35,798 nt of DNA from Gemmatimonadales bacterium (GTDB taxonomy: Bacteria > Gemmatimonadota > Gemmatimonadetes > Gemmatimonadales > GWC2-71-9). How positions within the stretch are numbered: position 1 is the first letter of the stretch; the number at the start of each line of letters is the position of its first letter. The translations under genes were made by a program, and so were the position numbers. Of the stretch, positions 6,822-28,351 are shown one piece after another. The stretch lies in NCBI GenBank assembly GCA_036265815.1, contig DATAOI010000035.1:1-35798 (forward strand), written 5' to 3'. The notes beneath the pieces were generated by a model that ran no database searches, was not told where the DNA came from, and saw only the letters and a list, made by a program, of their open reading frames with translations.

Positions 6822-7164
6822 CCCTCACTCCCGCTCCGCGAGCATGCGGCAGTTCGGCAGTGACGCGCAGCGGGGCGAGGAAGCGCCGGCAGCTTACCGC
6901 CCGGTGCGGGAGTCAGATCACATAACCGATGCTGGTTCCCAGTGCGGGTCCAGCGCCTCCAATCAGGAGTAGCTCTCAAGCGGGCAGAAGGACAACCCGC
7001 GCTCGGCCGAGTCGTTGCCCAGCGTAGAGACTGCGGTACACAACACCACGCCCACGGGTACACGTTACGTACGCCGGCCTTAGCTCGCCGGGCCAATTAG
7101 ATACATGGCTGGCCTGCATTATCCAGCCCTTCTTGCAGTCGGGCCCGCCACTGCCGCTAGGCTC
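6822..7164. other. Convergent intergenic stretch, no gene seen
   Basis: This lies between the ends of the ATPase gene and the minus-strand VIT1-type gene. There is no tRNA-like fold, no frame with a ribosome site and no compact hairpin with a T-run. Confidence 0.4.
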
Positions 7165-7863: not shown

Positions 7864-7868
7864 GCAAG

Positions 7869-8357
7869 TTATGTGGATCTCGAGTCCATCGATTGTGGTG
7901 CAAACGCGGCCGCGCGGATCTCGTCGTGGCGTATCTGGCCGCCCTCTATGGCCGCAAGCGCGAAGAGCACGGCGCTCACCAGCAACCCGACGAGCACCAC
8001 GCCAGTGAGGCTCCGGCGTTGGGGCTGCCCACCGCGAGCGAGCCACAGCCCAGCGACGGCCACTGCGCCGGTCACCAGCACCGCAATGAGCCCGGCTTCG
8101 GCGCGCTCCTCGTGAGCCTCGACGCGCTGCTTGTCGAACCATGGCTGATTCTCGAGTTGCTCCTCGGCCGGTTCGCCGGTGAGGTAGATGGGAATGGCCG
8201 TCACCGCAAGCAGCACTGTCAGCAGCAGACCAATCTGCGTACCGTCGCGTGACCCGCGGACAAGACCCCAGAGCAGCACGAGCGGTGCGAACAGCATCGT
8301 GCCGAGCACCGGAATGTGGTTCAGCACGAGATGTAAATGAGCGGCGCTGAGGTCCAT
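7869..8357 (-). CDS. DUF2231-type four-helix membrane protein
   Basis: The protein has 162 residues with four predicted membrane helices (about 12-33, 41-58, 88-106, 118-138). The opening HLHLVLNHIPVLGTM and the YLTGEPAEEQLE...VEAHEERAEAGL stretch are typical of DUF2231-like proteins. The membrane-embedded His residues (HLH, NH, HE) have suggested haem or metal ligation in this group, but that is inference. The start has GGGAGG five bases upstream. It is followed closely by the VIT1-type transporter gene. No 11-bp repeat promoter precedes it. Confidence 0.75.
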   Translation of the reverse strand: MDLSAAHLHLVLNHIPVLGTMLFAPLVLLWGLVRGSRDGTQIGLLLTVLLAVTAIPIYLTGEPAEEQLENQPWFDKQRVEAHEERAEAGLIAVLVTGAVAVAGLWLARGGQPQRRSLTGVVLVGLLVSAVLFALAAIEGGQIRHDEIRAAAFAPQSMDSRST

Positions 8358-8496
8358 CGGAGCCTCCCAGCAGCGGTGAGATGAGGATGCCTTCTACACC
8401 CTATTCTTCCAACACCCGATCAGTCGTGGCGTCGGACCACCGCGACGACTAGGGTTGCCGGTGCAGCAGTGGACTGACCGCAACGCCGAGATGACG

Positions 8497-9153
8497 TCAC
8501 GGTCGGAACGGCGTATCTCGGCGCGGTGGAACTTGAGTAAGCAGGCTTAGGAATGTGAGGCCCCCCGCTGCCACAAGCCCGAGATCCTCCCAGATACCCA
8601 ACTGCACCGCAGCCGAAACCCCTACCGCCGACCAGAGCAACGGGATCGCGAGCACGCTCAAGGGGGGGCGCGACGACGTCAAGGCCAGGAGCCCGAGCGT
8701 CACGATAGTCGTCGGGCACGGCAGGCCGAAGGTGGGGGCGGCCGGATATTGATGACCGAGCACGAGCGTCAGGGTCGGGTACACAAGCAGGGCGTAGGAG
8801 ATAAGGGCGGCTCCGAGGAGCCCTGAAATCGTCGGCGTCCACGCGAAGCGCAGGCGGCCGAGCCACCCGCCGAAAACAATCAGGAGCACGCCCTCCAATA
8901 TGAAGAGGATTCCGAACACCACGGCAGCAGGGTTGATTGATCGGAAGAAGACCAGGTGGTAGACGACGCCCATCCAGAGCCACAGGACACCCAAAATGAC
9001 CGCGATCGTTCGATCGGATCCGCGCCGGGGCCAGAGCGCTAGGGCCACGGCGCACAACGCCGCGAGCGTGAGGGCCACCTGGGCTGGCCACACCGCGGTG
9101 TTGTACCGCACGAAAACACTGAAGAACTGGTGCGTGTCGAACGGCAGCCGCAT
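8497..9153 (-). CDS. DUF6064-type multi-pass membrane protein
   Basis: The protein has 218 residues with about six to seven hydrophobic helices. The start LPFDTHQFFSVFVRYNTAVWPAQ and the inner segment YHLVFFRSINPAAVVFGILFILEG match the DUF6064 family, whose function is unknown. It starts six bases after the stop of the 57-residue gene, inside the USP operon, and is the last gene of that unit. Confidence 0.7.
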   Translation of the reverse strand: MRLPFDTHQFFSVFVRYNTAVWPAQVALTLAALCAVALALWPRRGSDRTIAVILGVLWLWMGVVYHLVFFRSINPAAVVFGILFILEGVLLIVFGGWLGRLRFAWTPTISGLLGAALISYALLVYPTLTLVLGHQYPAAPTFGLPCPTTIVTLGLLALTSSRPPLSVLAIPLLWSAVGVSAAVQLGIWEDLGLVAAGGLTFLSLLTQVPPRRDTPFRP

Positions 9154-9159
9154 TATCTC

Positions 9160-9333
9160 TCAGGGCGCCACGGAACGCTGGGCCAGTGAGCGCTCGATGG
9201 CCTCCAAATGCCGAGCAATCTTCTCCTGCGCCAGCATCCCGCGCCACAGTGTCGTGACAACCGCGCCTACGACGAGAATCCACAGAATCCCGTATCCGAA
9301 GGCGACTCCACTCATTCCGCCGTACGGCATCAT
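9160..9333 (-). CDS. 57-residue single-pass membrane protein
   Basis: The frame encodes MMPYGGMSGVAFGYGILWIL followed by VVGAVVTTLW and a charged amphipathic tail (QEKIARHLEAIERSL). It has one membrane helix of about 20 residues and a short cytoplasmic helix. The first ATG overlaps the USP stop as ATGA, and GGAG lies eleven bases upstream. Its stop is six bases before the DUF6064 start. Tight coupling on both sides supports a real gene, although no family is recognised. Short proteins with a similar helix-plus-coil layout are common next to membrane transporters. Confidence 0.65.
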   Translation of the reverse strand: MMPYGGMSGVAFGYGILWILVVGAVVTTLWRGMLAQEKIARHLEAIERSLAQRSVAP

Positions 9334-10340
9334 CGTCTGCTCTCCTGTGTGCTTCGTGAACGCCCTGACCTGATCCGGCGCGACGTCCGACTCCTCTTGC
9401 CCCGACCGGTTGGATGGTACACCAAGACTGGAACGTCCGCGCCACGTACCACCTTGTCCGCCACACTGCCGAGCACAAGCCGGCGCACCCCCCCACGGCC
9501 GTGGGTGGCGAGCGCCACCAGAGCGACACGCTCCGGGCGTGCCAGGTCGAGAATGGCATCTGCGGCAGTCCAGGCCACCCTGGCCGCACCGCTGGCGCGG
9601 ATGCCCCGACTCTGCATTTGCTCGACGACGTCATCTAGATAATCCTGCGCCTGTGCTCGACACAGCTCGGTGAGCTCCTCGTCGTAGGAAGACGGGTATG
9701 GAAATGCCGAGCTGGTGGCCAGTAGGACCGGGCGGACCATCTGTACCAGTGTCAGTTCCGCGTCAAAGACTCGCGCGAGCGCGCCGGCCGGGTCGAGCGC
9801 TTCCTCGGCGAGGGGAGAACCATCCAGCGGTACAAGAATCCCCCCAGCACGCGCCGCGCGATCGGAAGCTCGCCCGTTCTCTTCCGGTCGGACCAGGAGC
9901 ACCGGGACGGCAAGGTTTCGGATCAGGTAATCCGCCACGCTACCCAACCAAGCGCGTCGGATTCCACCTCGCCCATGCGTGGCCATGACCACCAGGTCGA
10001 TACCCATCTCCCGGATGTATTGCGCGAGTGCCGGACCGGGGCCGGCCGCACCCGTCAGGGTCACAGCCGAGGAGAGCCGCGTGCCGGACTCCCGCAGCCT
10101 GCCTTGCATCGCCCGCAGGTACCCCCGCTCTGATTTTCGGGTCGTGAGCTCGAGGGAGGTGAACAGCTCCGCGACCGCCACATCGAGCGGAGGAGTGGGC
10201 GGCTGGTGGACGAGCGCCAGGCGCAACTTGCCTCCGGATCGTTGGGCGATGTGGCATGCCAGGGGCGTCGCCTGCTCCGCCAACGCTGAACCGTCCAGCG
10301 GCACTAGGATCGAACGAAAGGGAAATGAATTGATTACCAT
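9330..10340 (-). CDS. Universal stress protein with two UspA domains
   Basis: The protein has 336 residues. Domain 1 (about 8-152) has SILVPLDGSALAEQ and THGRGGIRRAWLGSVAD. Domain 2 (about 166-310) has GGILVPLDGSPLAEE and THGRGGVRRLVLGSVAD. Both keep the GxxGx9GS-type nucleotide loop, so ATP binding is expected, unlike the junction USP. The C-terminus is a basic tail rich in Arg and Ser. ATG 10340 is preferred because the Usp fold begins within ten residues; the ribosome site is poor. The gene leads a unit with the 57-residue and DUF6064 genes. The intergenic region upstream holds the second copy of a 33-bp repeat, but no site with correct spacing points to this gene. Confidence 0.88.
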   Translation of the reverse strand: MVINSFPFRSILVPLDGSALAEQATPLACHIAQRSGGKLRLALVHQPPTPPLDVAVAELFTSLELTTRKSERGYLRAMQGRLRESGTRLSSAVTLTGAAGPGPALAQYIREMGIDLVVMATHGRGGIRRAWLGSVADYLIRNLAVPVLLVRPEENGRASDRAARAGGILVPLDGSPLAEEALDPAGALARVFDAELTLVQMVRPVLLATSSAFPYPSSYDEELTELCRAQAQDYLDDVVEQMQSRGIRASGAARVAWTAADAILDLARPERVALVALATHGRGGVRRLVLGSVADKVVRGADVPVLVYHPTGRGKRSRTSRRIRSGRSRSTQESRR

Positions 10341-10460
10341 GCGCGGGGCCTTACAGATGGCTTGTCTGTTCTCCCGTACTGCCGTAATGAGCAGAGCGAG
10401 GTTCACCCGTACTGATTGTTGTCGGACCCACTTCCGCCCAGACCGCTCGGGCATGAAGGG

Positions 10461-10511
10461 GCTGTTTGTGAAGACGTTCTAACGCCCCGTTCATCGGCCG
10501 TCAAGTCATAG
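10461..10511 (+). promoter_or_regulatory. Second copy of the 33-bp repeat with a possible orphan promoter
   Basis: Bases 10461-10493 match 3341-3373 with four differences. On the plus strand the units CTAAC (10479) and TTCAT (10490) are 11 bp apart. The sequence eleven bases on is TCATAG, a poor -10; TACTAG at 10518 is an alternative. On the minus strand TTCAC and TTCAT are present but 15 bp apart. A plus-strand transcript from here would run antisense into the unrecognised-family gene. No protein gene follows in that direction for 1 kb. Confidence 0.35.
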
Positions 10512-11033
10512 GCTCGTTACTAGTGAGGTCGGGAGATCACTCCAGCATGGCCCTTTCTCCTTTTCAATCGAGGCAAAATCCTCCCGGACCTGCATTGACA
10601 AGTCAGTCCAGCTCATTGACCCCACAATTTCCTCCACCTCAGTGAACCAGTGCTCCACCGCTCTCAGGAGTCTGGCGGTTAAAGCAGAAAATTCACCAGC
10701 GTGATGGCAGAGCCCCACCGAGTGGCAGAGTTGCCAGCGCACCATGGCAACCAGCTCGCCGGCAGCCCAGAGCCGTGTGATTCGCTTGTCGCCCATCGTA
10801 TGGCTCAGCTGATCGGTTGCCCCACGCTCCACGTCGAACTGACCCCAAAACACCGTATCCACGTAGCGAATGGCATTCCAGCGGGGCCAGAGATCGGAAT
10901 CTCTCGCTCCGGCCTTGTCCAACACCGCCCGTAGATCCTCAAGCCATCTACGATGCAGTGGCTTGAGCCTGTCCACGAGCTGCCCCCGCGACGGGGCAGG
11001 CGGTGTTCTGGAGCCTAGTTGGGTGACGGCCAT
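10506..11033 (-). CDS. Protein of unrecognised family, paralogue of the gene at 686-1240
   Basis: The protein has 175 residues. Shared blocks with its paralogue are LWPRWNAIRY (49-57), LWAAGEL (89-94), HSVGLCHHAGEF (104-115) and AVEHW (125-129), then MSWTDL. These invariant aromatic, His and Cys residues define a small family that I cannot name. Start ATG 11033 is chosen because GAGGAGG lies five bases upstream and the length then matches the paralogue; a longer frame to 11288 has no such support. An 11-bp repeat promoter lies about 70 bases upstream. The leader of about 65 bases is longer than at most sites. Confidence 0.8.
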   Translation of the reverse strand: MAVTQLGSRTPPAPSRGQLVDRLKPLHRRWLEDLRAVLDKAGARDSDLWPRWNAIRYVDTVFWGQFDVERGATDQLSHTMGDKRITRLWAAGELVAMVRWQLCHSVGLCHHAGEFSALTARLLRAVEHWFTEVEEIVGSMSWTDLSMQVREDFASIEKEKGPCWSDLPTSLVTSL

Positions 11034-11104
11034 CTCAGCCTCCTCGCAGACGATCCCTCGATTTGCTCCAACTAACTGCCCCACTTGAGCAGCCATTGCG
11101 ATAT

Positions 11105-11137
11105 AGCCTAAGTCGGCTCTGGTGAAGAAAGGATGAA
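11105..11137 (-). promoter_or_regulatory. 11-bp direct-repeat promoter for the minus-strand unrecognised-family gene
   Basis: On the minus strand TTCAT (11137-11133) and TTCAC (11126-11122) start 11 bp apart, with TTC again one period upstream. Eleven bases after TTCAC comes TAGGCT (11110-11105) as the -10. Confidence 0.7.
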
Positions 11138-11467
11138 GGCTGGGGGAAAATGTCTTGGCGCCTACAGACAGCCGCTTTGCGCTGTGTGGCGGGGGATGCT
11201 GCACCCAATGCTCTCTGAGGTATGCAGCGCAGGCCGACGGTTTTCCGCCGTGTCGTCGCGCCGCGCTCGGTTGAAGGTCTTCTTCCAAACCTAAGTAAGG
11301 CGACGAAGGTAGCTCGGTCGAGGCCGCTCTCGCGGCAGGCTTGAACAGCCACGTTGGACGTTCTCCCTAGGGTATTTCGGCGTTTCCTCGTACGTCTCGG
11401 GGATAGCAACAGCAACTCGGAAGCGTGGGGACCGCGACACTCCAACTAAAGCGTTCCTCGCCGGACG

Positions 11468-11500
11468 TTCATCCTTCCTTCATTCGTGCAGCCCTACTGT
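11468..11500 (+). promoter_or_regulatory. 11-bp direct-repeat promoter of the MDR oxidoreductase
   Basis: TTCAT at 11468 and TTCAT at 11479 are exactly 11 bp apart. Eleven bases later comes TACTGT (11495-11500). Transcription should begin near 11507, upstream of a short leader ORF. Confidence 0.75.
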
Positions 11501-11529
11501 CCTCCATGGGGCTTCAGCCGGAGCACGCA

Positions 11530-11556
11530 ATGCCTCAGTACCGATACGCTGTGTGA
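11530..11556 (+). CDS. Eight-residue leader ORF coupled to the MDR gene
   Basis: ATG 11530 has GGAG seven bases upstream and encodes MPQYRYAV. Its TGA overlaps the GTG start of the oxidoreductase (GTGA). The main gene itself has no ribosome site, so translation may depend on this leader. It is too short for protein-level evidence. Confidence 0.45.
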   Translation: MPQYRYAV

Positions 11557-12653
11557 CGCGCGAACGTGCTATGGAAGGGCCGTGCAATCGAGTTGTTCAA
11601 CTCAGGCGCTTCGGCGGTCCCGACGAGCTAGAGGTGTTTGACGCTCCTCGGCCGACAGCCGGCCGGGGCGAGGTCCGGGTCCGCGTGCTCGCCTCGAGCG
11701 TGAACTATACGGAGGTGTTGATCCGGCGCCGCCTCTACCCCCAGACGATGCGCCTCCAGCCACCATTCGTGCTGGGCTATGACGTCGTCGGGGAGATCGA
11801 TCAGCTCGGCGACGGCGTGCGCGACTTTGAGGTTGGCGACCACGTGGCCGACATGACGGTGGTCGGGTCGAACGCGGCATATCGCACGCTCCGGGCCAAC
11901 GACGTGGCCCGCCTGCCGGCGGGCGTCGACGCGGCGGAGGCGGCCACGCTCATCCTGAGCTGGACGACCGCGTACCAGCTCCTTCACCGTTCGGCCCACG
12001 TCAAGCCAGGCCAGCGAGTGCTCGTGCATGGAGCCGCCGGCGCCGTTGGTCAGGCGCTGCTCGCGCTCGGCAGGCTGGCCGGCCTCGAGGTGTGGGGCGC
12101 CGCGCGCGGCGAGCATGCGGCGCTGATCCGCGAGCTCGACGCCACGCCGATCGACTACCAACGCGAAGACTTCGCGCGCGTCCTACCGGGCGGATTCGAT
12201 GTCGTCTTTGACGGCATCGGCGAGCACGGCTATCGCCGCTCCTTCGCGGCGCTCAAGCCGGGCGGTTTGCTCCTCGCCATCGGATTCTCGGCGAGCGTGC
12301 AGGCGCGTCAACGGATGCGCACCATCGTGATGTCGATCGCGCGCTTGTATTTTTGGCAGCTTCTGCCCGGCGGCAAACACGCCCGCTTCTACTCCATCAA
12401 TGTGATGCGGGCTCGACATCCCGCCTGGTTCCGCGAGGACCTGGAGCGGCTTTTCGGCCTGTTGGCAATTGGCGCCATTCGGCCGCGTGTCGCCGAGCGG
12501 ATTTCCTTCCATGAGGTCGCCGAGGCACACCGTCGTCTCGAGGCGGGTGGCCTGGAGGGTAAGCTCGTCCTATGCCCGAACCTCCCGGCGCGACGGGACC
12601 GGGTTCCGCCCCAGAGCGAGCTGGGCGCCCCTGCCGTCCAGGCCCAGCCTTGA
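11553..12653 (+). CDS. Medium-chain dehydrogenase/reductase, quinone-oxidoreductase/VAT-1 type
   Basis: The protein has 366 residues (GTG start; ATG 11571 is an alternative). The GroES-like domain holds GEVRVRVLASSVNYTEVLIRRRLYP and the NADPH domain has the Rossmann loop VHGAAGAVGQALLALGRLAG near residue 155. It lacks the Cys/His set of zinc alcohol dehydrogenases, which points to a zinc-free quinone or enone reductase using NADPH. FDVVFDGIGEHGYRRSFAALKPGG matches the family core. The gene is monocistronic with its own repeat promoter. Enzymes of this type detoxify reactive carbonyls or quinones; the substrate is unknown. The last 20 residues form a disordered Pro-rich tail. Confidence 0.88.
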   Translation: MTRERAMEGPCNRVVQLRRFGGPDELEVFDAPRPTAGRGEVRVRVLASSVNYTEVLIRRRLYPQTMRLQPPFVLGYDVVGEIDQLGDGVRDFEVGDHVADMTVVGSNAAYRTLRANDVARLPAGVDAAEAATLILSWTTAYQLLHRSAHVKPGQRVLVHGAAGAVGQALLALGRLAGLEVWGAARGEHAALIRELDATPIDYQREDFARVLPGGFDVVFDGIGEHGYRRSFAALKPGGLLLAIGFSASVQARQRMRTIVMSIARLYFWQLLPGGKHARFYSINVMRARHPAWFREDLERLFGLLAIGAIRPRVAERISFHEVAEAHRRLEAGGLEGKLVLCPNLPARRDRVPPQSELGAPAVQAQP

Positions 12654-13004
12654 CCTGAGGCAGCATCAGCCTTCGAGACGCTCCCGGCTGCCTCTCGAGG
12701 CCACGCACCCCATTCTCGTGACCAGCCGGCTTTGCTTAAGGCTTGCCAAAGGCTGCGGTTCGGTGCGTTGCCGGGCGGGCTGAGCTAGCAGCGTTCTTTT
12801 TCGGCGATCTGACGCTCCCCTCATCGTTGACTCTTGGCTAGCTGCGCATCACCCCATGATTGGAGCACGGGGACCGAGCTGGTCCTCACCCACCCTCGGC
12901 GCGAGGCGCCAGTGCGTGAGGACCATCGGATCGGATGGACCGACATCCTCCGTGTGCTCGACGAAGCATGGACGCATAGCCGAGGACGCGAGCGGGGTGC
13001 ACTT
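12654..13004. other. Convergent intergenic stretch, no gene seen
   Basis: An imperfect inverted repeat (CTTCGAGA/TCTCGAGG, about 12670-12700) lies just after the MDR stop but has no T-run. The remaining sequence has no supported frame. Confidence 0.35.
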
Positions 13005-14003
13005 TCAGTGGGCAAGCTGCTCCGTGAGCGGTCCGGCGACCATGATCCGTTGGGGCTCCGAAGCGGTCTCCAGCGATTCACCGAGTGTAGGGCTGAACGC
13101 GCCGGCCACTGGATTCACGACGAGCACCGGCGTGGTGGCCCCGCGAATCACCTTGTCGGCTACGCTGCCCAGGAACATCCGCTTGATCCCTCCGAGCCCA
13201 CGGGTCGCCATCGCGATCAGGTCGCACCGGTGCGCTTCCGCAGAGCTCAGAATCACCGCCGAGGGAGTCCACGCCGTGACGACCTCGTGCTCCACATGCC
13301 ACCCCGCCTTGCGCAGTGTCCAGGCGGTGCCCTCGAGGTAACGCTGGGCAGACGCCAGCCGCACCTCCGTCAGGTTCCTCCCCGCGGGGGGCAAGGGCAT
13401 TGGGGCGCCGATGGGAAAGACCTCGGCAGGAGCGACGACTCGCACCAGATGCAGCACGACCTGACTTGGCGAGAACAGGCGCGCCACCTCGTCAATCACC
13501 GACTCCGCCAGCGCTGATCCATCGAGGGGCACCAGCACCCGGACCGCAGAAGGCAACTCGCTCGTCACCGCTTTGGTCGCGGGACGGACCAGGAGGAAGG
13601 GGCAGTGTAGCTCCCGAAGGAGACGGTCGGCCACGCTGCCCAGGAAGTGACGGCTGGGCCCTGAGCGGCCGTGAGTCGTCATAACGATGAGTTCTGGTGG
13701 ATCGGCCTGGGCGTGCTCGACGATGGTAGTCGCGGCTGCGCCCTCAGGTACCGTGGTGCTCACCTCGATATGGAAACGGCCGTGCACCTGCTTCGCCAGC
13801 CCCTCCAGGTACGTCCGTGTGTACGCCCGGGACATCGCCTCGATCTCCGCCATCACGGACGCTGAGATGTCGGGATTGACCGCCGCTGGATGGACGGTCA
13901 CCAGCTCGAGCTTGGTGCCCTTGCGTCGGGCGATCGCAGCCGCAAGCCAGAGGGCGCTTTCGCCAAAACCCGAGCCGTCCAAGGGAACGAGAAGGTGACG
14001 CAT
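13005..14003 (-). CDS. Universal stress protein with two UspA domains
   Basis: The protein has 332 residues. Domain 1 begins RHLLVPLDGSGFGES and has THGRSGPSRHFLGSVADRLL. Domain 2 begins VRVLVPLDGSALAES and has TRGLGGIKRMFLGSVADKVI. Both nucleotide loops look intact. Start ATG 14003 has AGGAG seven bases upstream, and the predicted leader is about 23 bases. It is a single gene behind a well-formed direct-repeat promoter. With the junction USP and the one at 9330-10340 it makes three tandem-domain USPs, in the same size class as mycobacterial Rv2623. Confidence 0.9.
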   Translation of the reverse strand: MRHLLVPLDGSGFGESALWLAAAIARRKGTKLELVTVHPAAVNPDISASVMAEIEAMSRAYTRTYLEGLAKQVHGRFHIEVSTTVPEGAAATTIVEHAQADPPELIVMTTHGRSGPSRHFLGSVADRLLRELHCPFLLVRPATKAVTSELPSAVRVLVPLDGSALAESVIDEVARLFSPSQVVLHLVRVVAPAEVFPIGAPMPLPPAGRNLTEVRLASAQRYLEGTAWTLRKAGWHVEHEVVTAWTPSAVILSSAEAHRCDLIAMATRGLGGIKRMFLGSVADKVIRGATTPVLVVNPVAGAFSPTLGESLETASEPQRIMVAGPLTEQLAH

Positions 14004-14032
14004 GGCGTGCTCCTGAGCTGAGGTCTGCCAGA

Positions 14033-14065
14033 ACAGTAGGTGCGCGCGCGTGAAGAAAAAATGAA
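14033..14065 (-). promoter_or_regulatory. 11-bp direct-repeat promoter of the USP gene
   Basis: On the minus strand TTCAT (14065-14061) and TTCAC (14054-14050) are 11 bp apart. Eleven bases on is TACTGT (14038-14033), the same hexamer as at the MDR promoter. Confidence 0.75.
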
Positions 14066-14310
14066 AGGGCGGCGAGAATGGCTTTATGGAGTAGCGCCAG
14101 GCACTATGGAGTGCGTCAAGTAACTTTGATGCCCCACCAACTACCCTGTGCCGGCGACAGCATTCGGCTATCTCAGCCCGGAGTCTGCCCGGCGACTTCG
14201 AAGCCTTGCGAGGAAGTCATGTACCGGATTCGACCATAGACTCACCCTCGACAAGGGGACGCCTGCTCGCAGCCAGGGCCGCGTCCCTTTGACGATCCTT
14301 TGCACCGCGG

Positions 14311-16941: not shown

Positions 16942-17712
16942 TCACGAGCCGGGTGCCCCACGGCTTGATGCTTTGAGCGCCGCGCCGCGGAAATCCTCAA
17001 GGGATCTTCGGTGCTCCTCGTACTCAGGCCGGCCGACCTTCACCTCGGCATCGTAGTGCTTCATGAACCCGCTGTACGCCTGATCGAGCGCCTTAGCGTC
17101 TTTGCGAAAACGCGCGACGGTTCCCAGGATGATGTATCCGAACAGGTGCCCCGGCGTCTTGGTCAGGATGGTGTCGCCTTGGGCGCGCGCCGCGTCGACA
17201 TTGTTCGTGTGCACCTCAAGGAGGGCGGCGTGGTACCGCGCGTCGGCGTCCACCGTGTCGAGCTGTGCATAGGCCATGAGCGCCATGGGCATGAAGCGCG
17301 TGACGGTCGCCTCGTCGCCCGACTGGGCGGCCTGCATGACGCGGTTGTAGAGTCGATTGAACCGTTCCTTGGGGCTCATGTTGCTGATGTCCGGCGGAGC
17401 CTCGGCCGGTGGGCCAGCCGACTCGCTGGTGGTTACCCTCGACGGCTTCGTGTTGAGCGTCCAGAGGACGACTGCCAGCAGACCCGCCAGCGAAGCGCCC
17501 GCGATCAGCCAGGGCGTACGCTCCCCCGACCGGGCCGGCGTCCGCGAGCCCACCGCGTGCCCGCACCCGGCGCAGAACCGCGCCGTAGCAGACAGCGGTG
17601 CGCCGCAGGCAGTGCACCGCGCGCCGGTACTGGGCGCGCCACAATTTGAGCAGAACGCGCCGGTGGCAGGAGCGGCGCAGGCAGGACAAGGAGTCGGCCT
17701 TGTGCTGGTCAT
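16942..17712 (-). CDS. Zinc-ribbon membrane protein with helical repeat domain
   Basis: The protein has 256 residues. The first 55 residues hold four Cys pairs (CPAC, CSNC, CTAC, CAGC), making two zinc ribbons. One membrane helix follows (about 68-87), then a Pro/Ser linker and a TPR-like helical domain (about 110-230). The ribbons should be cytoplasmic and the repeat domain periplasmic. ATG 17712 is preferred to GTG 17721 because GTGAGG lies just before it. It is divergent from the cytochrome cluster, and no link to it is proven. Function unknown. Confidence 0.7.
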   Translation of the reverse strand: MTSTRPTPCPACAAPATGAFCSNCGAPSTGARCTACGAPLSATARFCAGCGHAVGSRTPARSGERTPWLIAGASLAGLLAVVLWTLNTKPSRVTTSESAGPPAEAPPDISNMSPKERFNRLYNRVMQAAQSGDEATVTRFMPMALMAYAQLDTVDADARYHAALLEVHTNNVDAARAQGDTILTKTPGHLFGYIILGTVARFRKDAKALDQAYSGFMKHYDAEVKVGRPEYEEHRRSLEDFRGAALKASSRGAPGS

Positions 17713-18022
17713 GATCCTCACCTAGCAGATTCCGGGATCGACTCCGTCGTTCACCGTCTCATGGCCCCCGAGCGAGCCGATGGAGGGAGGCGGGGGACGG
17801 GAACTCGCTGCGCGCGGAGTACCTATCAGATCGATTTGGAGGCAACCCACACTTCTGTGGCAGGGCGGGTTCGTCAAGACGACAATTCCGTATAGCAAAG
17901 TCGGTTAAGGTTTCTTCATAAAACGACGGTCGGCCCAGCGAATCTATTGCGTAATTCTACGGATAGCCTAAATGTACTAGGGAATCCCCCCGGTAAAAAA
18001 ACAGCAGAGCTAAGGCGGGACT
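17713..18022. other. Upstream region of the cytochrome cluster
   Basis: The region is AT-richer than its surroundings from about 17880 on. A single TTCAT lies at 17915, but the 11-bp neighbour (GTTAA) and the expected -10 are missing, so this is not counted as a regulon site. No gene is seen. The true promoter of the cytochrome cluster cannot be located. Confidence 0.4.
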
Positions 18023-19654
18023 ATGCCCATTGCCCGATTCCTCTGTGGCCAATCTTTCGGTCTCACGGCACTGGTCGTACTCGCGCTCTCCGGCTGCACC
18101 AGCGAAAAGCTCGTTTTCCGGGAGCCATTCAACCCCCCACCCGACAACACCAACAAATTCCTCGGTTACTTCACCGTTAGCGATAAGCAGACCTCCTGCG
18201 GCAACTGCCACGTCGAGAAGCAGGCCGATTGGACCACAACGAAGCACTCCCAGGCCTGGGGTGACCTCGTCGCGTCGGGGCACCAGACCGCGGCGTGCAA
18301 CAGTTGTCATACGGTGAGCGAGCGGGGGAACGCTACTGCTGCTCCAGCAGGGTACAGCGCCGTAGCCGATACCGCTTATCAGGACGTGCAGTGCGAAAGC
18401 TGCCACGGATCGGGCTTCGACCATGCCTCGAGCCCGTCGCTCGCGAACCGGCCGCTCGCGAGCATCAACGTGCCGACGGATCCAACCGCCTGGGTCGAAT
18501 CCTCGACCTGTGGCTCCTGCCACACGGGTGACTTCTCGCCGTTCGTCGAGCAGTGGAGCCAGTCGGGACACGCCGGCACGGTGAGCGAAGTGATCGAGGA
18601 GTTGGCGGCCGACAACAGCCTCAGCTGCGGTCAATGCCACGAGGCACGGAAGGTTCTCCAGGGGTGGAACGTGGCCACGAACTACACCGAAGCCGGGGAT
18701 GCGATTACCACGGAGAACGCCTTGCCCATCACGTGTGCGGTCTGTCATGACCCGCACGAGAAGAAGCACGAGGGGCAGCTCCGGTGGGCGATCGACGATC
18801 CCAATCCTGACAACAACCTCTGCATGAAGTGCCATAACCGCCGGAGCGAGCCGCAGGCCACGAGCCCGCGCGGGCCGCACGCCCCGCAAGGCGGCGTCCT
18901 TCTCGGCACGGCAGGGTACTGGCCGGCAGGCTTCGATACCACGGCGGTCGTCGCCACCCACGGAAACGTGAGCGTCAACACCCGGCTGTGCGCGGGGTGC
19001 CATGTGGCACCGTTCACGGTGACGGACGCGAGCGGCAATGTCACGTTTCAATCGACCGGGCACCTCTTCATCCCCGATCCCTGCCTGGATGCCCAAGGCA
19101 AGCCGCTGGGCGACAACACGTGTTCGCGCCCGGGGGATGCGGGCTACGCGTCGGGTTCGCGCAAGTTCAACGGTTGCAGTGCCTCGGGCTGCCACTCGAG
19201 CGAGACGGCGGCGGAGAACGCCTTCGAGGCCAACCGCAACGTCATCAGAACGCTCGCTGACCAGCTCTGGGTAGACGCCAATGGCAACCAGGTGCTGTAC
19301 GACACGACCACCTCCGCCGATCCCGAGGGCTCCGGCCTGCCCAAATCATTCGATCCCGGCGACACCGGCCTGCTCACGCAGGTGCCGGTGAGCGAGTTCA
19401 ACTACAAGGACAAGGTGATCACCGACGCCGAGGGCGTGCTCTTCAACGTGCGCCTGGTCGGCGAGAACCGCTACGCCAATGGCGACCGCTCATTCGGGGT
19501 GCACAATCCCTTCCTGGCGCAGTCGCTGTTGACCGCGAGCATCGACGCGCTGCAGGCCAGGTACGGCCTGGACGTGTCGCCGCAGGTGCGGGCGATCATG
19601 GAACGGGTCAGGGCCCGAAACCCTCGCGACAACCTTTCGCTTCGCACGAGGTGA
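18023..19654 (+). CDS. Nine-haem c-type cytochrome lipoprotein
   Basis: The protein has 543 residues. A signal peptide ends in the lipobox LSGC (Cys about 25). Eight CxxCH motifs (CGNCH, CNSCH, CESCH, CGSCH, CGQCH, CAVCH, CMKCH, CAGCH) and one CX4CH (CSASGCH) give nine likely haems. The N-terminal CGNCHVEKQADWTTTKHSQAW resembles cytochrome c554-type proteins, and the C-terminal RSFGVHNPFLAQSLL is a common end of multihaem cytochromes. The lipid anchor suggests placement at the outer membrane, possibly at the cell surface. It is the first gene of a four-gene cluster that includes a porin, so it is the best candidate for the outer terminal of an electron conduit. Confidence 0.88.
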   Translation: MPIARFLCGQSFGLTALVVLALSGCTSEKLVFREPFNPPPDNTNKFLGYFTVSDKQTSCGNCHVEKQADWTTTKHSQAWGDLVASGHQTAACNSCHTVSERGNATAAPAGYSAVADTAYQDVQCESCHGSGFDHASSPSLANRPLASINVPTDPTAWVESSTCGSCHTGDFSPFVEQWSQSGHAGTVSEVIEELAADNSLSCGQCHEARKVLQGWNVATNYTEAGDAITTENALPITCAVCHDPHEKKHEGQLRWAIDDPNPDNNLCMKCHNRRSEPQATSPRGPHAPQGGVLLGTAGYWPAGFDTTAVVATHGNVSVNTRLCAGCHVAPFTVTDASGNVTFQSTGHLFIPDPCLDAQGKPLGDNTCSRPGDAGYASGSRKFNGCSASGCHSSETAAENAFEANRNVIRTLADQLWVDANGNQVLYDTTTSADPEGSGLPKSFDPGDTGLLTQVPVSEFNYKDKVITDAEGVLFNVRLVGENRYANGDRSFGVHNPFLAQSLLTASIDALQARYGLDVSPQVRAIMERVRARNPRDNLSLRTR

Positions 19655-19698
19655 GTAGCGACGATAACGCCGTCCGCCGATAGACGCCCGCCAGCTCC

Positions 19699-21756
19699 AT
19701 GGGCATGATCCGGCTGCTCGGCGCAAGCGTACTGGCCATCGCTCCTTCTGCGGTTGTTCCGGGAGAGGCGGTGGCCGTGCCGCTTCAGACGCAGGACACG
19801 CTGACGCATCACCTCCTCGATTCGGTGGTGGTTCGCTCGCCGCTGCCGGACCCTCTTGTCCCCATCGTCCAGTGGATTTTTCAGAAGCCCGCGTGGCTCA
19901 TGGCCACCGGAATCGTGGTCGGCGTGCTGCTGGCGCTCGCGGTCGTCGTCCTGTTGTGGCGCCGGCGCCGGGCCGTGAGCACCTGGCTCATCACCCGGGA
20001 TCGCGGCGCCAAGCTCAGCTTGCTCGCGGCACTCGGCGCCGTTCTGCTCCTCACGGTGGGCTCGGGCGTCAAGGCCTATGACTACATGATGCACGACAAC
20101 GATTTCTGCAGCGGCTGCCACATCTTCGTCCCCAGTGGACAGGTGTTCGTCCGTCCGGACACTGGGACCTATCTCCTGGTCAACAAGCTGGAGGGGAAGC
20201 ACGACTCGCTCAGCTGTCATAGCTGTCACCCCTTCGAGCTGAAGGCCCAATCGAAGGAGCTGTTCTACTGGATCATCGAACGGCCGGACCGGATCCCACC
20301 CCACGCCAAGGTCCCGCGTCATGTCTGCGAGGGCTGTCATGTACAGGGCGAGGCAAGAAAGACTTGGGCCCGGATCGCGTCGACAGCCGGGCACCGGACC
20401 CACCTGGAGTCCGACTCCGCGGCACTTAAAGATGTCGCGTGTCTGACCTGCCACGCGCGAACCGCCCATCGGTTCCAGCCGGCCGACACGACCTGCGCGC
20501 AGAAGGGGTGCCATCTGACGGATGAGGTCAGGATCAAGCTCGGACGGATGGCGGCCCGCTTCACGCCCGCGAACGTGCAGCCGCTCCCCAACGAGGAGCA
20601 GCTCTACTGCAATACCTGCCACCAGTTCACGGCCGAGGCACAGTTCGTCAGCCGCGACTCCGCGTCTGGTCTCCTCACGCCCGGCTCGCGTCAGTGTTTC
20701 GGCTGCCACGAGATGCGGCAACTGCTGGCGACCTTCGATCTCGCCAAGGACCCGCATCGCGGGAGCTGCGGGATGTGTCACGACCCCCACACGGACGTCA
20801 AGCCCGCCAACGCACTCAAGTCCTGCGCCGACGCGGCGTGTCACGCTGACTGGCGGACTGTCGCATTTCACTCGGGTGCGACCCACCGCAAGGTGGCGTC
20901 GCGTTGCCAGACCTGCCACATCCCCCATGCCGCGCGGGTAGACGCGAGCGACTGCACTGGCTGTCACGAGTCCGTGCGGAAGAGCGGGGGAAAGCTGCGG
21001 CCACCACTCCCGTTTGATACGACCAAGGCCCTGCAGCAGAGCCTCCGGCTATTCGAGCCGGGCCGCGCGAGGGGTCAGGGAGCCGGGCCGCCCCCGGATG
21101 ATCCACCCGGGCAACCCACGGAGCGACGCACCGTACCCGCTGACACTTTCTCCCATAAACGCCACCGCCGACTCACTTGCATCACCTGCCACACGACGAC
21201 CTCACCGACGAGTCGCCTCACGTTCGAGCCGCCCCGCGGATGCCAGATCTGCCATCACCAGCGGCCGACCTCGGCAGAGTGCGGCAGCTGCCACGAGTCG
21301 ACCGAGCTGTCCCGGCCGGCGCTGGTCACGGTATCGGTGTCCGTGCCCCGGCAGCCGACAAGATCGCGTCCGGTCGCGTTCGACCATCGGAGGCACCGCG
21401 ACTTGGCGTGCGTCCAGTGCCACACGACCCGGGTGACCCTCGAGCCCGATTCCACTGTCACGGCCTGCACTGGCTGTCATGAGGATCACCACGTTGCGGG
21501 GCGGGACTGCGCTGCCTGTCACCGGAGCGCGGAGACCACCAAGGCTCACCAACCGCCTGTCGACGCCCACCAATCATGCGATCGGTGCCATACCGAACGC
21601 ACGGTCAAACGCCTCGAGCCGACGCGGTCTTTCTGCCTCGCCTGCCACGGGAGCGAAACCGATCATCACGCCGAGAAGGAGTGCACCGTCTGCCATCTGC
21701 AGGCCTCACCGGAGACGTTTCGGCCCCGGCTGACCAGCGCTGGCGGTCGGCCGTGA
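19699..21756 (+). CDS. Membrane-anchored 20-haem cytochrome c with NapC/NirT-like anchor
   Basis: The protein has 685 residues. A signal-like N-terminus is followed by two membrane helices: about 64-90 (PAWLMATGIVVGVLLALAVV) and about 101-120. The first haem comes right after the second helix (AYDYMMHDNDFCSGCH), the NapC/NirT arrangement for taking electrons from the quinol pool. I count 18 CxxCH and two CX4CH motifs (CAQKGCH, CADAACH), so 20 haems. A Pro/Gly-rich linker near residue 465 splits an N-terminal half from a C-terminal half with SHKRHRRLTCITCH and DHRRHRDLACVQCH repeats. Its stop overlaps the next start (GTGA). It should span from the inner membrane into the periplasm. Confidence 0.88.
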   Translation: MGMIRLLGASVLAIAPSAVVPGEAVAVPLQTQDTLTHHLLDSVVVRSPLPDPLVPIVQWIFQKPAWLMATGIVVGVLLALAVVVLLWRRRRAVSTWLITRDRGAKLSLLAALGAVLLLTVGSGVKAYDYMMHDNDFCSGCHIFVPSGQVFVRPDTGTYLLVNKLEGKHDSLSCHSCHPFELKAQSKELFYWIIERPDRIPPHAKVPRHVCEGCHVQGEARKTWARIASTAGHRTHLESDSAALKDVACLTCHARTAHRFQPADTTCAQKGCHLTDEVRIKLGRMAARFTPANVQPLPNEEQLYCNTCHQFTAEAQFVSRDSASGLLTPGSRQCFGCHEMRQLLATFDLAKDPHRGSCGMCHDPHTDVKPANALKSCADAACHADWRTVAFHSGATHRKVASRCQTCHIPHAARVDASDCTGCHESVRKSGGKLRPPLPFDTTKALQQSLRLFEPGRARGQGAGPPPDDPPGQPTERRTVPADTFSHKRHRRLTCITCHTTTSPTSRLTFEPPRGCQICHHQRPTSAECGSCHESTELSRPALVTVSVSVPRQPTRSRPVAFDHRRHRDLACVQCHTTRVTLEPDSTVTACTGCHEDHHVAGRDCAACHRSAETTKAHQPPVDAHQSCDRCHTERTVKRLEPTRSFCLACHGSETDHHAEKECTVCHLQASPETFRPRLTSAGGRP

Positions 21757-23261
21757 GCACGCCGCGGGCGGACATTCTTCTGCTCGGAATTGTGGGTCTT
21801 TCGCTGGCTGGGTCTGCGGCGGAGGCGCAGGGCTATCGCTTGCGCCTCGACTCGAGAGCGCAGCGGGTGAGCTATCGCGGAGTCGCCGAGGACAGCATTC
21901 CCAGGGCAGCGGTGGTCACCGGCCCGACGGGAGGGCTGGAGACGCCGGATGGATTCGCCGTCCGGTGTCCTGAAGGCGGGGCCTCCTGCTACTTCTTCCG
22001 CCCGGGGCGCGAGGTGCGCGGGGCGCCCATGATCTCGTCGGCCGACCTGGTGCTCTGGGGGCTCGGAGTACGGGGCCTGAGCGTCCGGATGAACGGACGC
22101 TTCGGCGTGGATCTGGGTGACAGCGAGGTGTGGCCCGGCACGGAGCCGGCCGTGCAGCTCATCGAGGCCTACGCCGAGTACGCTCACCCGTCGTTCACAG
22201 TGCGAGGTGGCCGCCAGCTGCTGACCAACCGACTCGGCGTCGTCGGCTTCGACGGGGGGCACCTGGCCGTCCGATCGGACCGGCGCGGGCTCGAGGCGGA
22301 CGTCTACGTGGGCCTCGGCCTCGCCCGCGCCACGGCCCTTCCTGTCACCAGCCCGGTGCTCAACCCGCTGGACGATTTCCAGCCGCGCCGCCGTCAGCTC
22401 CTGACCGGCATCGCGCTGATGCACAGCGGGCGTCTCGCCGACGTGCGGGCCGACTATCAGCGCGAGATCGATCGCGAGGACCGGAATTTCGTTTCCGAGC
22501 GAGCCGCGCTCGCGCTCGACCTCCGTCCGGGGCAGCGGTGGAGCATCACCGCGGGCGCGGACTACGACCTGGCCAACACCTGGTTCGGGAACGCGGAGGC
22601 GGTGGTGCGGTACACGACCCCGTGGGTCACGGTGGCGGGCGGCGCGCGCCAGTACCGTCCGTACTTCGATCTGTGGACCATCTGGGGCGCGTTTAGCCCG
22701 GTGCCCTACCACGCAGTGAATGCGGCGACCTGGGTCCGGCCGGCTCGGGGGCTCGAGCTCCGCGCCCGCTGGGAAGGCTACGAGTACTCAAAGACGGAAA
22801 CCGAGACCCCGCTGGTGGACGTGGGTCACGACGGGTGGCGCTTCGGAACGGGCGTCACCTACAGCCCGAGTCCCGCGTGGACGGTGGATGCGGGGTACCG
22901 CGAGGAGAGCGGACCGGGCGCGGCGTCGCACGGGTTCGAGGGGAGCGTCACCTTCATTTCTGGTGCGGCTCTGTCGCTGACCGGCTACGCGTCCACGCTC
23001 GATCGGCCGCTCGAGTTCCGGTTCGATGACGCGTCCGCCGACGCGTTCGGCTTCGATGCCGAGTGGCGCCCCACGGGCCGGCTGCGGATCGGGATGGGGC
23101 TCGCGCGGTACACCGAGGACCGAGCCCGCCCTGACGCGGCCGCGTTCGATTGGGACCAGACCCGCCTCAACGCGCGTGTGACCCTGCTGCTCCGGAGCGA
23201 CGCCGATGCCGTCCATGTGCCGCCCGCGCTGCGGGGGCGTTCCCGGGCGGGATCGCGGTGA
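21753..23261 (+). CDS. Outer-membrane beta-barrel porin of the cytochrome cluster
   Basis: The protein has 502 residues. A signal peptide (LLLGIVGLSLAGSAAEAQG) is followed by alternating amphipathic strands rich in Tyr, Trp, Arg and Gly, such as AEYAHPSFTVRGGRQLL and RWSITAGADYDLANTW, to the C-terminus. The length fits a barrel of roughly 20 or more strands. Its place between two multihaem cytochrome genes, with start-stop overlaps on both sides (GTGA at 21753 and 23258), suggests it sheathes a cytochrome as MtrB or PioB does. Homology to MtrB is not evident by eye; the role is inferred from context. Confidence 0.75.
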   Translation: MSTPRADILLLGIVGLSLAGSAAEAQGYRLRLDSRAQRVSYRGVAEDSIPRAAVVTGPTGGLETPDGFAVRCPEGGASCYFFRPGREVRGAPMISSADLVLWGLGVRGLSVRMNGRFGVDLGDSEVWPGTEPAVQLIEAYAEYAHPSFTVRGGRQLLTNRLGVVGFDGGHLAVRSDRRGLEADVYVGLGLARATALPVTSPVLNPLDDFQPRRRQLLTGIALMHSGRLADVRADYQREIDREDRNFVSERAALALDLRPGQRWSITAGADYDLANTWFGNAEAVVRYTTPWVTVAGGARQYRPYFDLWTIWGAFSPVPYHAVNAATWVRPARGLELRARWEGYEYSKTETETPLVDVGHDGWRFGTGVTYSPSPAWTVDAGYREESGPGAASHGFEGSVTFISGAALSLTGYASTLDRPLEFRFDDASADAFGFDAEWRPTGRLRIGMGLARYTEDRARPDAAAFDWDQTRLNARVTLLLRSDADAVHVPPALRGRSRAGSR

Positions 23262-24688
23262 GGCTCGGGTCGTTCGGTATTCTGGTGCTCTGCGCGGTCA
23301 CCCTAGCCGGCGGTGCCGCCGCGTACATGCTCCGGGACCCGTTCGATCACTGGCAGCACCGGAAGCTATTTCCGAGCTGCACCGGCTGCCACGCCGGCGC
23401 GGAGGCTGCCGGTCGCTCGCTGTGGCCCCAGCCCCCCGACTGCGCGACGTGCCACGACGACGCCATCGAGAAGCGGGTGGACTGGAGCCCGCCGGCGGAG
23501 TCGCGGCCGAGCAATCTGCGGTTCACGCACCAGCGGCACGCCGAGAAGGTCGCCCGCGCGTGGGGTGCCGACTCCACGCTCCGGTGCGCCGCCTGCCACA
23601 ATCTGCGCGGCACCGATCCGATGCAGGTCCGGCCGGCGGTCGTCCAGAGCTGCCTCGAGTGCCATGGAATCAGGACCGCCCACCTGAGCGCGCCGGATAC
23701 GGCGTGCGCCACCTGCCACGTGTCGCTGGTCCAAGCGGTGCGGCTCACCCGTGAGCGGGTCAGGGACTTCCCGACGCCGGACAATCATCGCGGGGCAGAC
23801 TTCGCATCCATGGGGCATGGGAAGCTCGCCCGGACTGGCGGAGCGCCGGTGGCGGCCTCATGCGCCACCTGCCACGCGCGAGACTTCTGCGCCGAGTGCC
23901 ACGTGAATGCACCGGAGGTCCCGGCCATCCAGGCGCTGGCTCCGGACCAAAGGTCGCTGGTGGTGGGGGCAAGGCCCGAGGCCCCGGCGAGTCATGCCGA
24001 TCCGAGCTTCCTTCGGCGACACGGCGGCCGAGCCGGGAAGGACGCAGCGCGCTGCGCCGTGTGCCACACGCAGGAGAGCTGCACCACGTGCCACATCGGT
24101 TCCCCTGCCAGCGCCCTGGCGATTCCCAGATCGGGCCCGGGCCGGGGCCGCGGCGTGGCCGTGCTCCGCCAGCGCCCCGTGTCCCACGGTCTCGACTTCT
24201 CCCGACTCCATGCGCAACCGGCCGAGGCCCGTCCTCAGAGCTGCAGCGGCTGCCACGCGCGCACCGAATGCCTGTCCTGCCACCGGCCCGACGCTGGCGA
24301 GGCGCCGCCGGGATACCATCCCAGCGGATTCCTCTCCAGCCACCCCGCCGCCGCGTTCAGCCGGGAGAGCTCCTGCAGCGAGTGCCACGAGCAGGGCCAG
24401 TTCTGCGCCAACTGCCACCTCAAGGCCGGCCTCGTCTCGCCCGGGCGGCTGCGCGGCACCAGGTATCACGATGCCAAGCAGGCGTTTCTCTTGAACCATG
24501 GACAGGCCGCGCGCCAGAGCCTGGAGAGCTGCGTCACCTGCCACTCCGAACGTGACTGCCTCGCGTGCCACTCTGCCGCGAATGGCCGCCGCTTCAATCC
24601 CCACGGGCCTGGGTTCGACGCGAGCACACTTCGCCGCAAGAACCCGTCGATGTGCACCGCCTGCCACGGCGCCGCGATTCCGGAATAG
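23258..24688 (+). CDS. Sixteen-haem c-type cytochrome
   Basis: The protein has 476 residues from a GTG start that overlaps the porin stop. An N-terminal helix (LGSFGILVLCAVTLAGGAAAYML) acts as signal or anchor. Sixteen CxxCH motifs follow, from CTGCH near residue 44 to CTACH ten residues before the end, often as close pairs (CATCHARDFCAECH, CSGCHARTECLSCH, CSECHEQGQFCANCH). Pairs of this kind resemble class III cytochrome packing. Two His-rich stretches (FTHQRH) give distal ligands. It should be periplasmic, linking the 20-haem protein to the porin. A decayed copy of its C-terminal third lies at 34846-35230. Confidence 0.88.
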   Translation: MRLGSFGILVLCAVTLAGGAAAYMLRDPFDHWQHRKLFPSCTGCHAGAEAAGRSLWPQPPDCATCHDDAIEKRVDWSPPAESRPSNLRFTHQRHAEKVARAWGADSTLRCAACHNLRGTDPMQVRPAVVQSCLECHGIRTAHLSAPDTACATCHVSLVQAVRLTRERVRDFPTPDNHRGADFASMGHGKLARTGGAPVAASCATCHARDFCAECHVNAPEVPAIQALAPDQRSLVVGARPEAPASHADPSFLRRHGGRAGKDAARCAVCHTQESCTTCHIGSPASALAIPRSGPGRGRGVAVLRQRPVSHGLDFSRLHAQPAEARPQSCSGCHARTECLSCHRPDAGEAPPGYHPSGFLSSHPAAAFSRESSCSECHEQGQFCANCHLKAGLVSPGRLRGTRYHDAKQAFLLNHGQAARQSLESCVTCHSERDCLACHSAANGRRFNPHGPGFDASTLRRKNPSMCTACHGAAIPE

Positions 24689-26337: not shown

Positions 26338-26380
26338 TTCACGGTGCGTTCAGGTGGGTTTCACTGGCGCCCATCACATT
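26338..26380 (+). promoter_or_regulatory. 11-bp direct-repeat promoter (three units) of the PLP decarboxylase
   Basis: TTCAC (26338), TTCAG (26349) and TTCAC (26360) are each 11 bp apart. The best -10 is CACATT at 26375, ten bases on. Transcription would then begin near 26387, at or just before ATG 26388, so the first ATG would be nearly leaderless. Confidence 0.7.
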
Positions 26381-26387
26381 GGACGCC

Positions 26388-28351
26388 ATGCCCATCAACC
26401 CAGGCGAAGCCATGGGGGCCTGGTTCCTCGGGCCCCGCGCCGAGAATGCCGAACTACTCGAACGTCTCGTCGTGGAAGCCCTCCGCGACCATGTCTTCTG
26501 GCGCCGCAACTATCACCCTGAGGACGGCTTTGCCATCCGCGAGATGGACAAACGACGGGAAGGGTACGAAGAGAAGGTCGCCACCCTGACTCAGGAGCTC
26601 ATGGGCCTGCTGGCGGAGCTCAAGCGTGATGTTCCCTTCTTCAGCGGCCGCTACAAGGGTCATATGCTCGGCGAGCAGACCATCGCCGCGCAGGTCGGTT
26701 ACTTCGCCACTATGCTCTACATCCCGAACAACGTCGCCGTGGAGATCTCGCCGGTGACCACGCGGCTCGAGCTGGAGGTGGCCGGACAGCTCGCCCGTAT
26801 GATCGGCTACGAGCCGGCGGGCAGCTGGGGCCATCTGACCAGTGGCGGTACGATCGCCAACTTCGAGGCGCTCTGGCTGGCCCGCAGCGTTCGCTACCTC
26901 GCGGTGGCAGCCGCGGGTGCCGCCAACGAGCTCGGACTCGAGCTACCGGTGCGCCTTCCCGATGGTGGGGAGGCGCCGAACGTCGAGCTTCCGCTCTGGG
27001 AGCTGCTCAACGTCACCAATCATGACTCACTCGACCTGTGGGAGCGTCTCTGGGCCTCGGGATCTCGGTCAGAGGTGCAGCGCGCGGTGGCGAACCACTC
27101 GCTGGCCGCGATCGGCTATCAGGAGTACAGCCGGCGGCTCGCACTGGACTACGGGGACCCGCTCCCGGCGGGGGTGGTGCTGGTGGCGGCGACGGCGCAC
27201 TACTCCTGGGAGAAGATCGTCCGGGCGCTGGGCATCGGGTCCAACCAGCTCGTGCATCTTCCGCTCGACCGGTGGTGCCGTATGGATCCGGACGCGCTCT
27301 GGGAGCAGGTCAGCGCCCTGGCCCGGCGCCGCCAACCGATTCTGGCGCTGGTGAGCGTCTGCGGGACAACCCGAGGAGAGCGCGGTGGATCGGCTCGATC
27401 AGGTGCTGCAGGTGAGGACCCGTGCCGAGCGGGAGCTGGGTGCGACCTTCCATGTTCATTCCGACGCTGCTACGGCGGTTATGCCGCGGCGGTGACCCGC
27501 CGAGCCAACGGAACCAGACGTACAGCCGAGGAGATCAGGGCCTCGATGGGTACCGATTGGCCTTCCGACGAGTGGGTCACGGCCATGGTGGCACTGGGCC
27601 AGGCGGATTCGGTCTCGGTGGATCCGCACAAGATGGGGTACGTTCCCTACTCTGCCGGGGCTGTTCTGGTTCGGGATGGTCGAACCCGTCATCTGGTCGC
27701 AACCGACCCGCCGTACCTCTCCCCGGTGGAGGGCGCAGCACCAACCGCCGAGCGCTTCCTCGGCCGATACATCCTGGAGGGCTCGAAGCCCGGTGCAGTG
27801 GCGGCGGCGGTCTGGCTCAGTCACAGGGTGCTGCCGCTCGACGAGCGAGGATACGGTTACCTCATCGAGCGCACGGTGGCGGGCGCCAAGCATTTCCACT
27901 CGGCCCTGGCAGGCGCGGATCTCTCGCCGTACTGTGCAGTCCTGCTGCCGGTGCCGGACATCAACATCGTGTGCTACCTGGTCTGCCATGCTTCGCTCCG
28001 CTCCGCGACGTCAATAACTTCAACGAGCGGGTGTACGCGCGCATGAGCCTCGCCCGAAGCGGCGGCCAGCCGGAGTACATCATCAGCCGGACGCGGCTTC
28101 GCAGCCCCGCGTACGCCGGGGCCATGGGACCGATCCTGGAGCAACTGGCCATCGGATCGGTGGAGGAGTGGGCGGCGAGCGGCGAGGATGGCCTGGTCGT
28201 GCTGCGCTCGACCGTCATGGACCCGTTCTTGGTGGCTCCGCCGTCGGCGACCGATCACGTGAGCGGCTTCCTGGGTGCGTTCCGCCGGGCCTGTGACGAT
28301 GCACGCGAGGCAGCCGCGTCGGCCACAAGCACCGCTGCTGAGTCGGTTTGA
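26388..28351 (+). pseudogene. PLP-dependent (glutamate decarboxylase-like) enzyme with three frameshifts
   Basis: The coding sequence is recognisably a group II amino-acid decarboxylase of about 650 residues. Substrate-fold markers are TSGGTIANFEALWLARS, and the PLP lysine is in VDPHKMGYVPYSAG (Lys codon at 27630). Three breaks are visible. Near 27371 one extra C moves the frame; read one base later it gives EESAVDRLDQVLQ...HVHSDA. Near 27465 a missing base restores the first frame at YGGYAA. At 27996-28005 a tandem CTCCG duplication moves the frame again, and the C-terminus (VNNFNERVYARMSL...VVLRSTVMDPF) continues to 28351. The start may be ATG 26388 or ATG 26412 (MGAWFLGPRAENAE), the latter giving a leader of normal length. 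It is inactive if the breaks are real. The PNPOx-like gene follows 49 bases on. Confidence 0.75.

Follow-up and report, generated by a model that had tools for sequence, protein, structure and literature searches.

Four adjacent genes in a contig of a Gemmatimonadales bacterium, three for multihaem cytochromes and one for a beta-barrel, raise the question of whether their products carry electrons across the outer membrane and, if so, by what route. We analysed the whole stretch of 35,798 nucleotides (the window), contig C35 in a host genome of 4.59 Mb and 99% completeness. With a probability of roughly three in four, we read the four genes as encoding a complete conduit of the porin-cytochrome kind, one that connects the quinol pool with the cell surface in the outward direction.

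Gene layout and haem sites

The genes, here called A, B, P and D, lie in that order on one strand between positions 18023 and 24688.

18023-19654, + strand: A, lipoprotein cytochrome of 543 aa with 8 CXXCH and 1 CX4CH (9 haem sites)
19699-21756, + strand: B, membrane-anchored cytochrome of 685 aa with 18 CXXCH and 2 CX4CH (20 haem sites)
21753-23261, + strand: P, GTG start, 502 aa, signal peptide and beta-barrel, 0 haem motifs
23258-24688, + strand: D, GTG start, secreted cytochrome of 476 aa with 16 CXXCH and without a lipobox
21753-21756, + strand: GTGA start/stop overlap of B and P
23258-23261, + strand: GTGA start/stop overlap of P and D

Haem sites sum to 45 (42 canonical CXXCH and 3 CX4CH), which confirmed the counts of 9 for the lipoprotein, 20 for the anchored protein and 16 for the last gene in the original prediction, and its GTGA junctions between the last three genes were found at both places listed. 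The true starts of P and D are the GTG codons within these overlaps, and longer reading frames from ATG 21576 and TTG 23150, respectively, were discarded. Between A and B lie 44 bp, and only B, P and D are joined by overlaps. Chance CXXCH motifs were ruled out by their uniqueness in the window, where only A, B and D carry at least 2 per open reading frame, together with the invariant haem Cys and His residues in homologue alignments. All four genes diverge fastest at third codon positions (4/4), and comparison with a same-genus genome, which holds all four at 45-66% identity (BLAST), gave dN of 0.26-0.53 and dS of about 1.5-2.3 (saturated), values consistent with purifying selection.

Scans of the whole window for Rfam families and tRNAs returned no matches. 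The cluster is surrounded by stress and housekeeping genes, among them those for a DUF892 protein, an Hsp20-like protein, a TonB-like protein and a Na/H antiporter, and no evident redox partner was present among the window genes around it. Beside the cluster, positions 4875-14003 encode a P-type cation ATPase, a VIT-family protein and two double universal stress proteins. A pyridoxal-dependent decarboxylase (glutamate-decarboxylase-like) at 26379-28351 is split over overlapping frames (26379-28046 and 27422-28351) and looks frameshifted, either as a pseudogene or through an assembly error.

The barrel and its fixed cytochrome partner

P was modelled with AF2 as a single chain (pLDDT 85, pTM 0.78). 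The DSSP string of this model contains 22 strands when residues 78-102 are taken as one long strand, and the model has no plug domain and bears long loops opposite the side that carries both termini. Fold searches with VIA-align returned 22-strand TonB-dependent receptors, matched end to end (Z 16-19 over 350-370 residues), although such receptors carry a plug and P does not; other matches were Occ porins and ushers, and the best ones are generic large barrels. MtrB appeared at rank 43 of the Foldseek matches (TM 0.41) and outside the 50 listed VIA-align matches, which speaks neither for nor against a distant relation. The lumen is about 29 A by a geometric estimate, and an MtrA-like wire would take up about 24 A; with 22 predicted strands P is thus predicted to be wide enough for a chain of haems, contrary to the case of too narrow a barrel that had been named as fatal to a conduit.

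Sequence comparisons gave P no family. An assignment to MtrB/PioB (TIGR03509), the check proposed with the original prediction, was rejected at 12.2 bits compared with a curated cut-off of 240 bits, and profile-profile comparison with the same family gave a probability of 30% over 144 columns. The entire host genome contains no match to the MtrB/PioB family; the model does match in 25 of 298 Gemmatimonadota in the same search, so its absence from the host is informative. A search of PDB sequences returned only unrelated weak matches, no solute-porin family was found by sequence, and a weak GSU2204-family match reached 14.7 compared with 350 bits. By sequence profile, then, P falls outside every conduit family tested, a set that does not extend to Geobacter Pcc (OmbB/OmaB/OmcB), ExtABCD, OetABI and DFE_0448-0451/0461-0465. 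One genome of the phylum (G063:C5) has an MtrB/PioB-family barrel at 375232-377112 and a P-family barrel at 387752-389209, about 12 kb apart, and therefore two unrelated conduit types.

The partner of P is D, which begins with a 5-haem part that is c7/HmcA-like by profile match and continues with five two-haem modules of the form H-x7-9-H ... CXXCHX4-5CXXCH, followed by a last single haem. No match to the MtrA/DmsE model TIGR03508 (cut-off 192 bits) was found, and Foldseek with the D model, whose second half is poorly predicted, returned nothing below E 0.9. Haem Cys and His residues are invariant across aligned homologues (21-28 in each of the alignments of A, B and D). Homologues of D have haem/pair counts of 16/5 (78 cases), 18/6, 14/4, 12/3 and 9/4, with a few truncated, such that the haem number shifts mainly by whole two-haem modules. 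Short forms keep the C-terminal part, which is for that reason the likely site of contact with P.

Of 101 relatives, 41 have a P relative, and a profile search placed P in 116/395 Gemmatimonadota genomes and 66/138 genera, counts that cover this phylum, phyla beyond it being sparsely sampled. In a scan of genome contigs with a profile built from a 15-row alignment, the nearest named relatives by P are MAGs of Gemmatimonadales. Some close same-genus relatives are without P, which marks the system as accessory. Among 104 distinct P loci, five stop inside P or directly beyond it; at all of the other 99, those with downstream sequence, a D-type gene follows next on the same strand (99/99). Upstream of P, among 64 loci with at least 4.5 kb of sequence, A and B were both present in 44, one of them in 11 and neither in 9, and some loci keep P and D but lack A or have another gene in its place. 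The proposed check of gene order in other genomes thus bore out the cluster, with a fixed core of P and D and a looser association of A and B.

This distribution bears on whether P is an unrelated solute porin lying amid periplasmic cytochromes, with no electron path through the outer membrane. Such a porin would be compatible with P matching only generic barrels in fold and no family model in sequence, but adjacency to D at every such locus across the phylum, the GTGA overlaps seen here and a plug-free barrel of 22 strands, an unusually large size for a diffusion porin, make this reading highly improbable. A small solute porin was ruled out by the strand number and the fixed cytochrome partner, and no porin family free of cytochrome association, the other outcome named as fatal, emerged. 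A barrel gene fixed beside a gene for a secreted multihaem cytochrome is one of the traits that define porin-cytochrome systems, and P-D has it; the other, a cytochrome that sits in the barrel and takes electrons across the outer membrane, is the predicted role of D. We take D to be the likely barrel insert and an obligate partner of P. The original prediction had ordered the parts as anchor, periplasmic wire, barrel and lipid-anchored cytochrome; the conduit plan is supported by the P-D pairing, but anchor and long wire proved to be one protein, B, with D as a second wire.

Several loci depart from the common form. One contig (L121, G324:C25) has P-D pairs at 4673-6127 (+) and 12732-14168 (-), opposite facing and less than 10 kb apart, and two loci (L053 and L118) each have two tandem A-type genes, which indicates that the module has been duplicated locally. 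Two contigs in a Candidatus Kuenenia stuttgartiensis bin (L103 and L122), broken inside a P gene with 42-46% identity to the window's P, are probably mis-binned Gemmatimonadota. A 275 kb contig of a Krumholzibacteriota MAG (L125) carries A-B-P-D with a P identity of about 28% and may reflect transfer, shared ancestry or mis-binning.

Proposed routes to and from the barrel

B carries hydrophobic segments at about 63-90 and 102-127 (hydropathy), the second just ahead of haem 1. Its head (positions 92-155) matches the NrfH profile 2j7a_C (E 3.7e-11), its middle is weakly MtrA/DmsE-like (TIGR03508, 24.0 bits, short of the 192-bit cut-off), and its c7/c3-like tail of 9 haems matches the 12-haem GSU1996-type protein 3ov0 (E 1.3e-12). 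The architecture is thus an NrfH/NapC-like 4-haem head followed by 16 further haems. The NapC/NirT hallmark, a membrane helix and then a four-haem NrfH-like domain, is present, and PF03264 (NapC/NirT) gave no match to B at E up to 1, so that the head is a divergent relative and we term B NrfH-like rather than a NapC/NirT member. Most homologues have both hydrophobic segments and members of one family (f3) have the second only; haem Cys and His residues are invariant except for one homologue with CX2CH at the second CX4CH site. From these matches B is a putative quinol dehydrogenase and periplasmic wire in one polypeptide, and it may span the periplasm alone.

At loci such as L045, L046, L049, L050 and L114, a 19-haem protein of 940-1110 aa stands directly ahead of P in B's place. 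The protein at L045 contains a cytochrome b561 domain, several of the others share matching hydrophobic segments, and we liken these proteins to CbcL-type quinone-linked proteins. Genes for CcmF (11 loci), cytochrome b (10) and Rieske proteins (7) recur near the cluster and, together with the b561 variants, link P-D with quinone chemistry and with the assembly of cytochrome c.

A has the lipobox LSGC with the lipid-bearing Cys25, which is invariant together with the haem sites in an alignment of 21 homologues, bearing out its reading as a lipoprotein. By the E. coli rules, a residue other than Asp after the lipid Cys directs a lipoprotein to the outer membrane; in A this residue is Thr. Profile matches, which between multihaem cytochromes owe part of their strength to the CXXCH motif, include 6qvm, OcwA (6i5b), MtrA (6r2q_A), cytochrome c554 and hydroxylamine oxidoreductase, and A scored below the MtrA/DmsE cut-off (TIGR03508, 34.8 compared with 192 bits). 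OcwA-like surface cytochromes have nine haems, a c554 part fused to an NrfA-like part and a C-terminal three-helix bundle. Weak matches at low identity are collinear over most of OcwA, both proteins have 9 haems, and the matches include the C-terminal GVHN motif, which lies outside every haem site. A is, on these features, likely an outer-membrane, surface-facing relative of the OcwA / cytochrome c554 / NrfA-HAO group. Separately, a zinc-ribbon protein with one hydrophobic segment is encoded at 16942-17721 (-), divergently from A, and has relatives close to the cluster in several other genomes, its family occurring at 7 loci.

This grouping would also suit an outer-membrane respiratory enzyme, in which A passes electrons at the surface to an acceptor in solution and B, D and P serve as its supply line, as DmsEF does for DmsAB. 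OcwA itself reduces nitrite and hydroxylamine besides its role as an electrode-facing reductase (PMC6703420), but the catalytic haem motif CXXCK is absent from A, and A is lost or replaced at some loci where P-D stays; we consider such an enzyme quite improbable.

The conduit path that we infer has quinol as its donor, runs outward, threads D through P and ends with A exposed at the surface. B, in the inner membrane, would oxidise quinol via its NrfH/NapC-like four-haem head and send the electrons down its remaining 16 haems into the periplasm. D, as a chain of two-haem modules, would sit inside the 22-strand P, the AF2 models being of single chains without haem, and carry electrons through the outer membrane to A, which would hand them to an external acceptor such as a mineral, a humic substance, an electrode or a soluble compound.

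The same parts could in principle work inward: A would draw electrons from Fe(II), Mn(II), an electrode or a partner cell, and P-D and B would relay them to quinone or the oxidases. In favour of this are the symmetric architecture, the inward-running MtoAB and PioAB, which have related parts, and the several haem-copper oxidases of the host. Heads of the NrfH/NapC type are, on the other side, typically quinol oxidising, and autotrophy is not indicated, as the host has no full RuBisCO match but a partial one at 71 bits (positions 1-143 of 299), neither point being decisive. This partial match to the RuBisCO large family (G000:C28, 97323-97739, in a 388 aa frame) is perhaps a RuBisCO-like (form IV) protein. 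The host also has CcmF/CcmC-type genes, and its sole other tandem-CXXCH locus, by a spacing-limited pattern, reads as alternative complex III. Oxidases and Ccm genes without a full RuBisCO favour outward flow in a heterotroph, and an aerobic heterotroph that sheds electrons outside when oxygen is short fits the host best; we regard inward use as unlikely.

Comparison with known conduits

Soils and sediments commonly harbour Gemmatimonadota, and the literature found credits the phylum with no more than scattered multihaem or Cyc2 genes; one survey lists 1 CbcL-type and 2 ImcH-type homologues and no CymA for Gemmatimonadetes (PMC6295460). No description of an A-B-P-D cluster was found in the literature searched, which excluded the figures and supplements of a survey of porin-cytochrome clusters in karst MAGs (PMC13264449) and of a set of about 2000 multihaem neighbourhoods, 440 of them without FeGenie homologues (PMC11475568), either of which may include these loci. 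If the conduit reading is true, roughly 30% of the genomes sampled and close to half of the genera would hold a conduit, extracellular respiration (or uptake) would be a phylum-level trait, and P-D would provide marker genes missed by MtrB/MtrA models. The one-polypeptide wire of B and the modular D would make the tuning of wire length to barrel and envelope directly testable.

The cluster shares the porin-cytochrome plan (PMC4245776, PMC7198977) with MtrCAB, MtoAB and PioAB, namely a barrel, a multihaem periplasmic insert, in Mtr a surface lipoprotein cytochrome, and feeding by a NapC-type quinol dehydrogenase. MtrB/PioB are barrels of 26-28 strands (26 in MtrB; PMC7198977) round a decahaem cytochrome, whereas P has 22 predicted strands and a 16-haem partner; MtrA has 10 haems and D has 16 in modular form; the surface cytochrome of Mtr is MtrC, whereas A is OcwA-like; and the anchor CymA has 4 haems compared with 20 in B. 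The N-terminal region of B resembles NrfH and CymA in its hydrophobic segment followed by four haems, to which B adds 16. OcwA of Thermincola potens sits on the surface of a Gram-positive cell and has no barrel partner; A is encoded in one cluster with a barrel.

Geobacter Pcc (OmaB-OmbB-OmcB) and OetABI likewise combine a porin, a periplasmic cytochrome and an outer lipoprotein cytochrome (PMC4245776, PMC10553843); their haem numbers differ from those of A-B-P-D, a separation made by description rather than sequence, and the accessible parts of both papers do not name Gemmatimonadota. PCC3 and PCC4 of neutrophilic iron oxidisers (PMC5566968) are also very haem-rich porin-cytochrome clusters proposed from genomes, but contain a conserved five-helix inner-membrane protein; none is encoded between 18023 and 24688, which holds only A, B, P and D, and its counterpart here is an NrfH-like head fused to a wire or the b561/19-haem variant. 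The original view that the components are unlike the MtrCAB and PioAB families holds for P, with the refinement that A and the head of B have recognisable relatives in the OcwA/c554/NrfA-HAO group and in NrfH, respectively. Set beside these systems, we lean towards P-D being a separately evolved conduit family characteristic of Gemmatimonadota, with a wire of two-haem modules tuned from 9 to 18 haems, docked to exchangeable quinol modules (NrfH/20-haem or b561/19-haem) and needing as few as three cytochromes from quinol to the outside.
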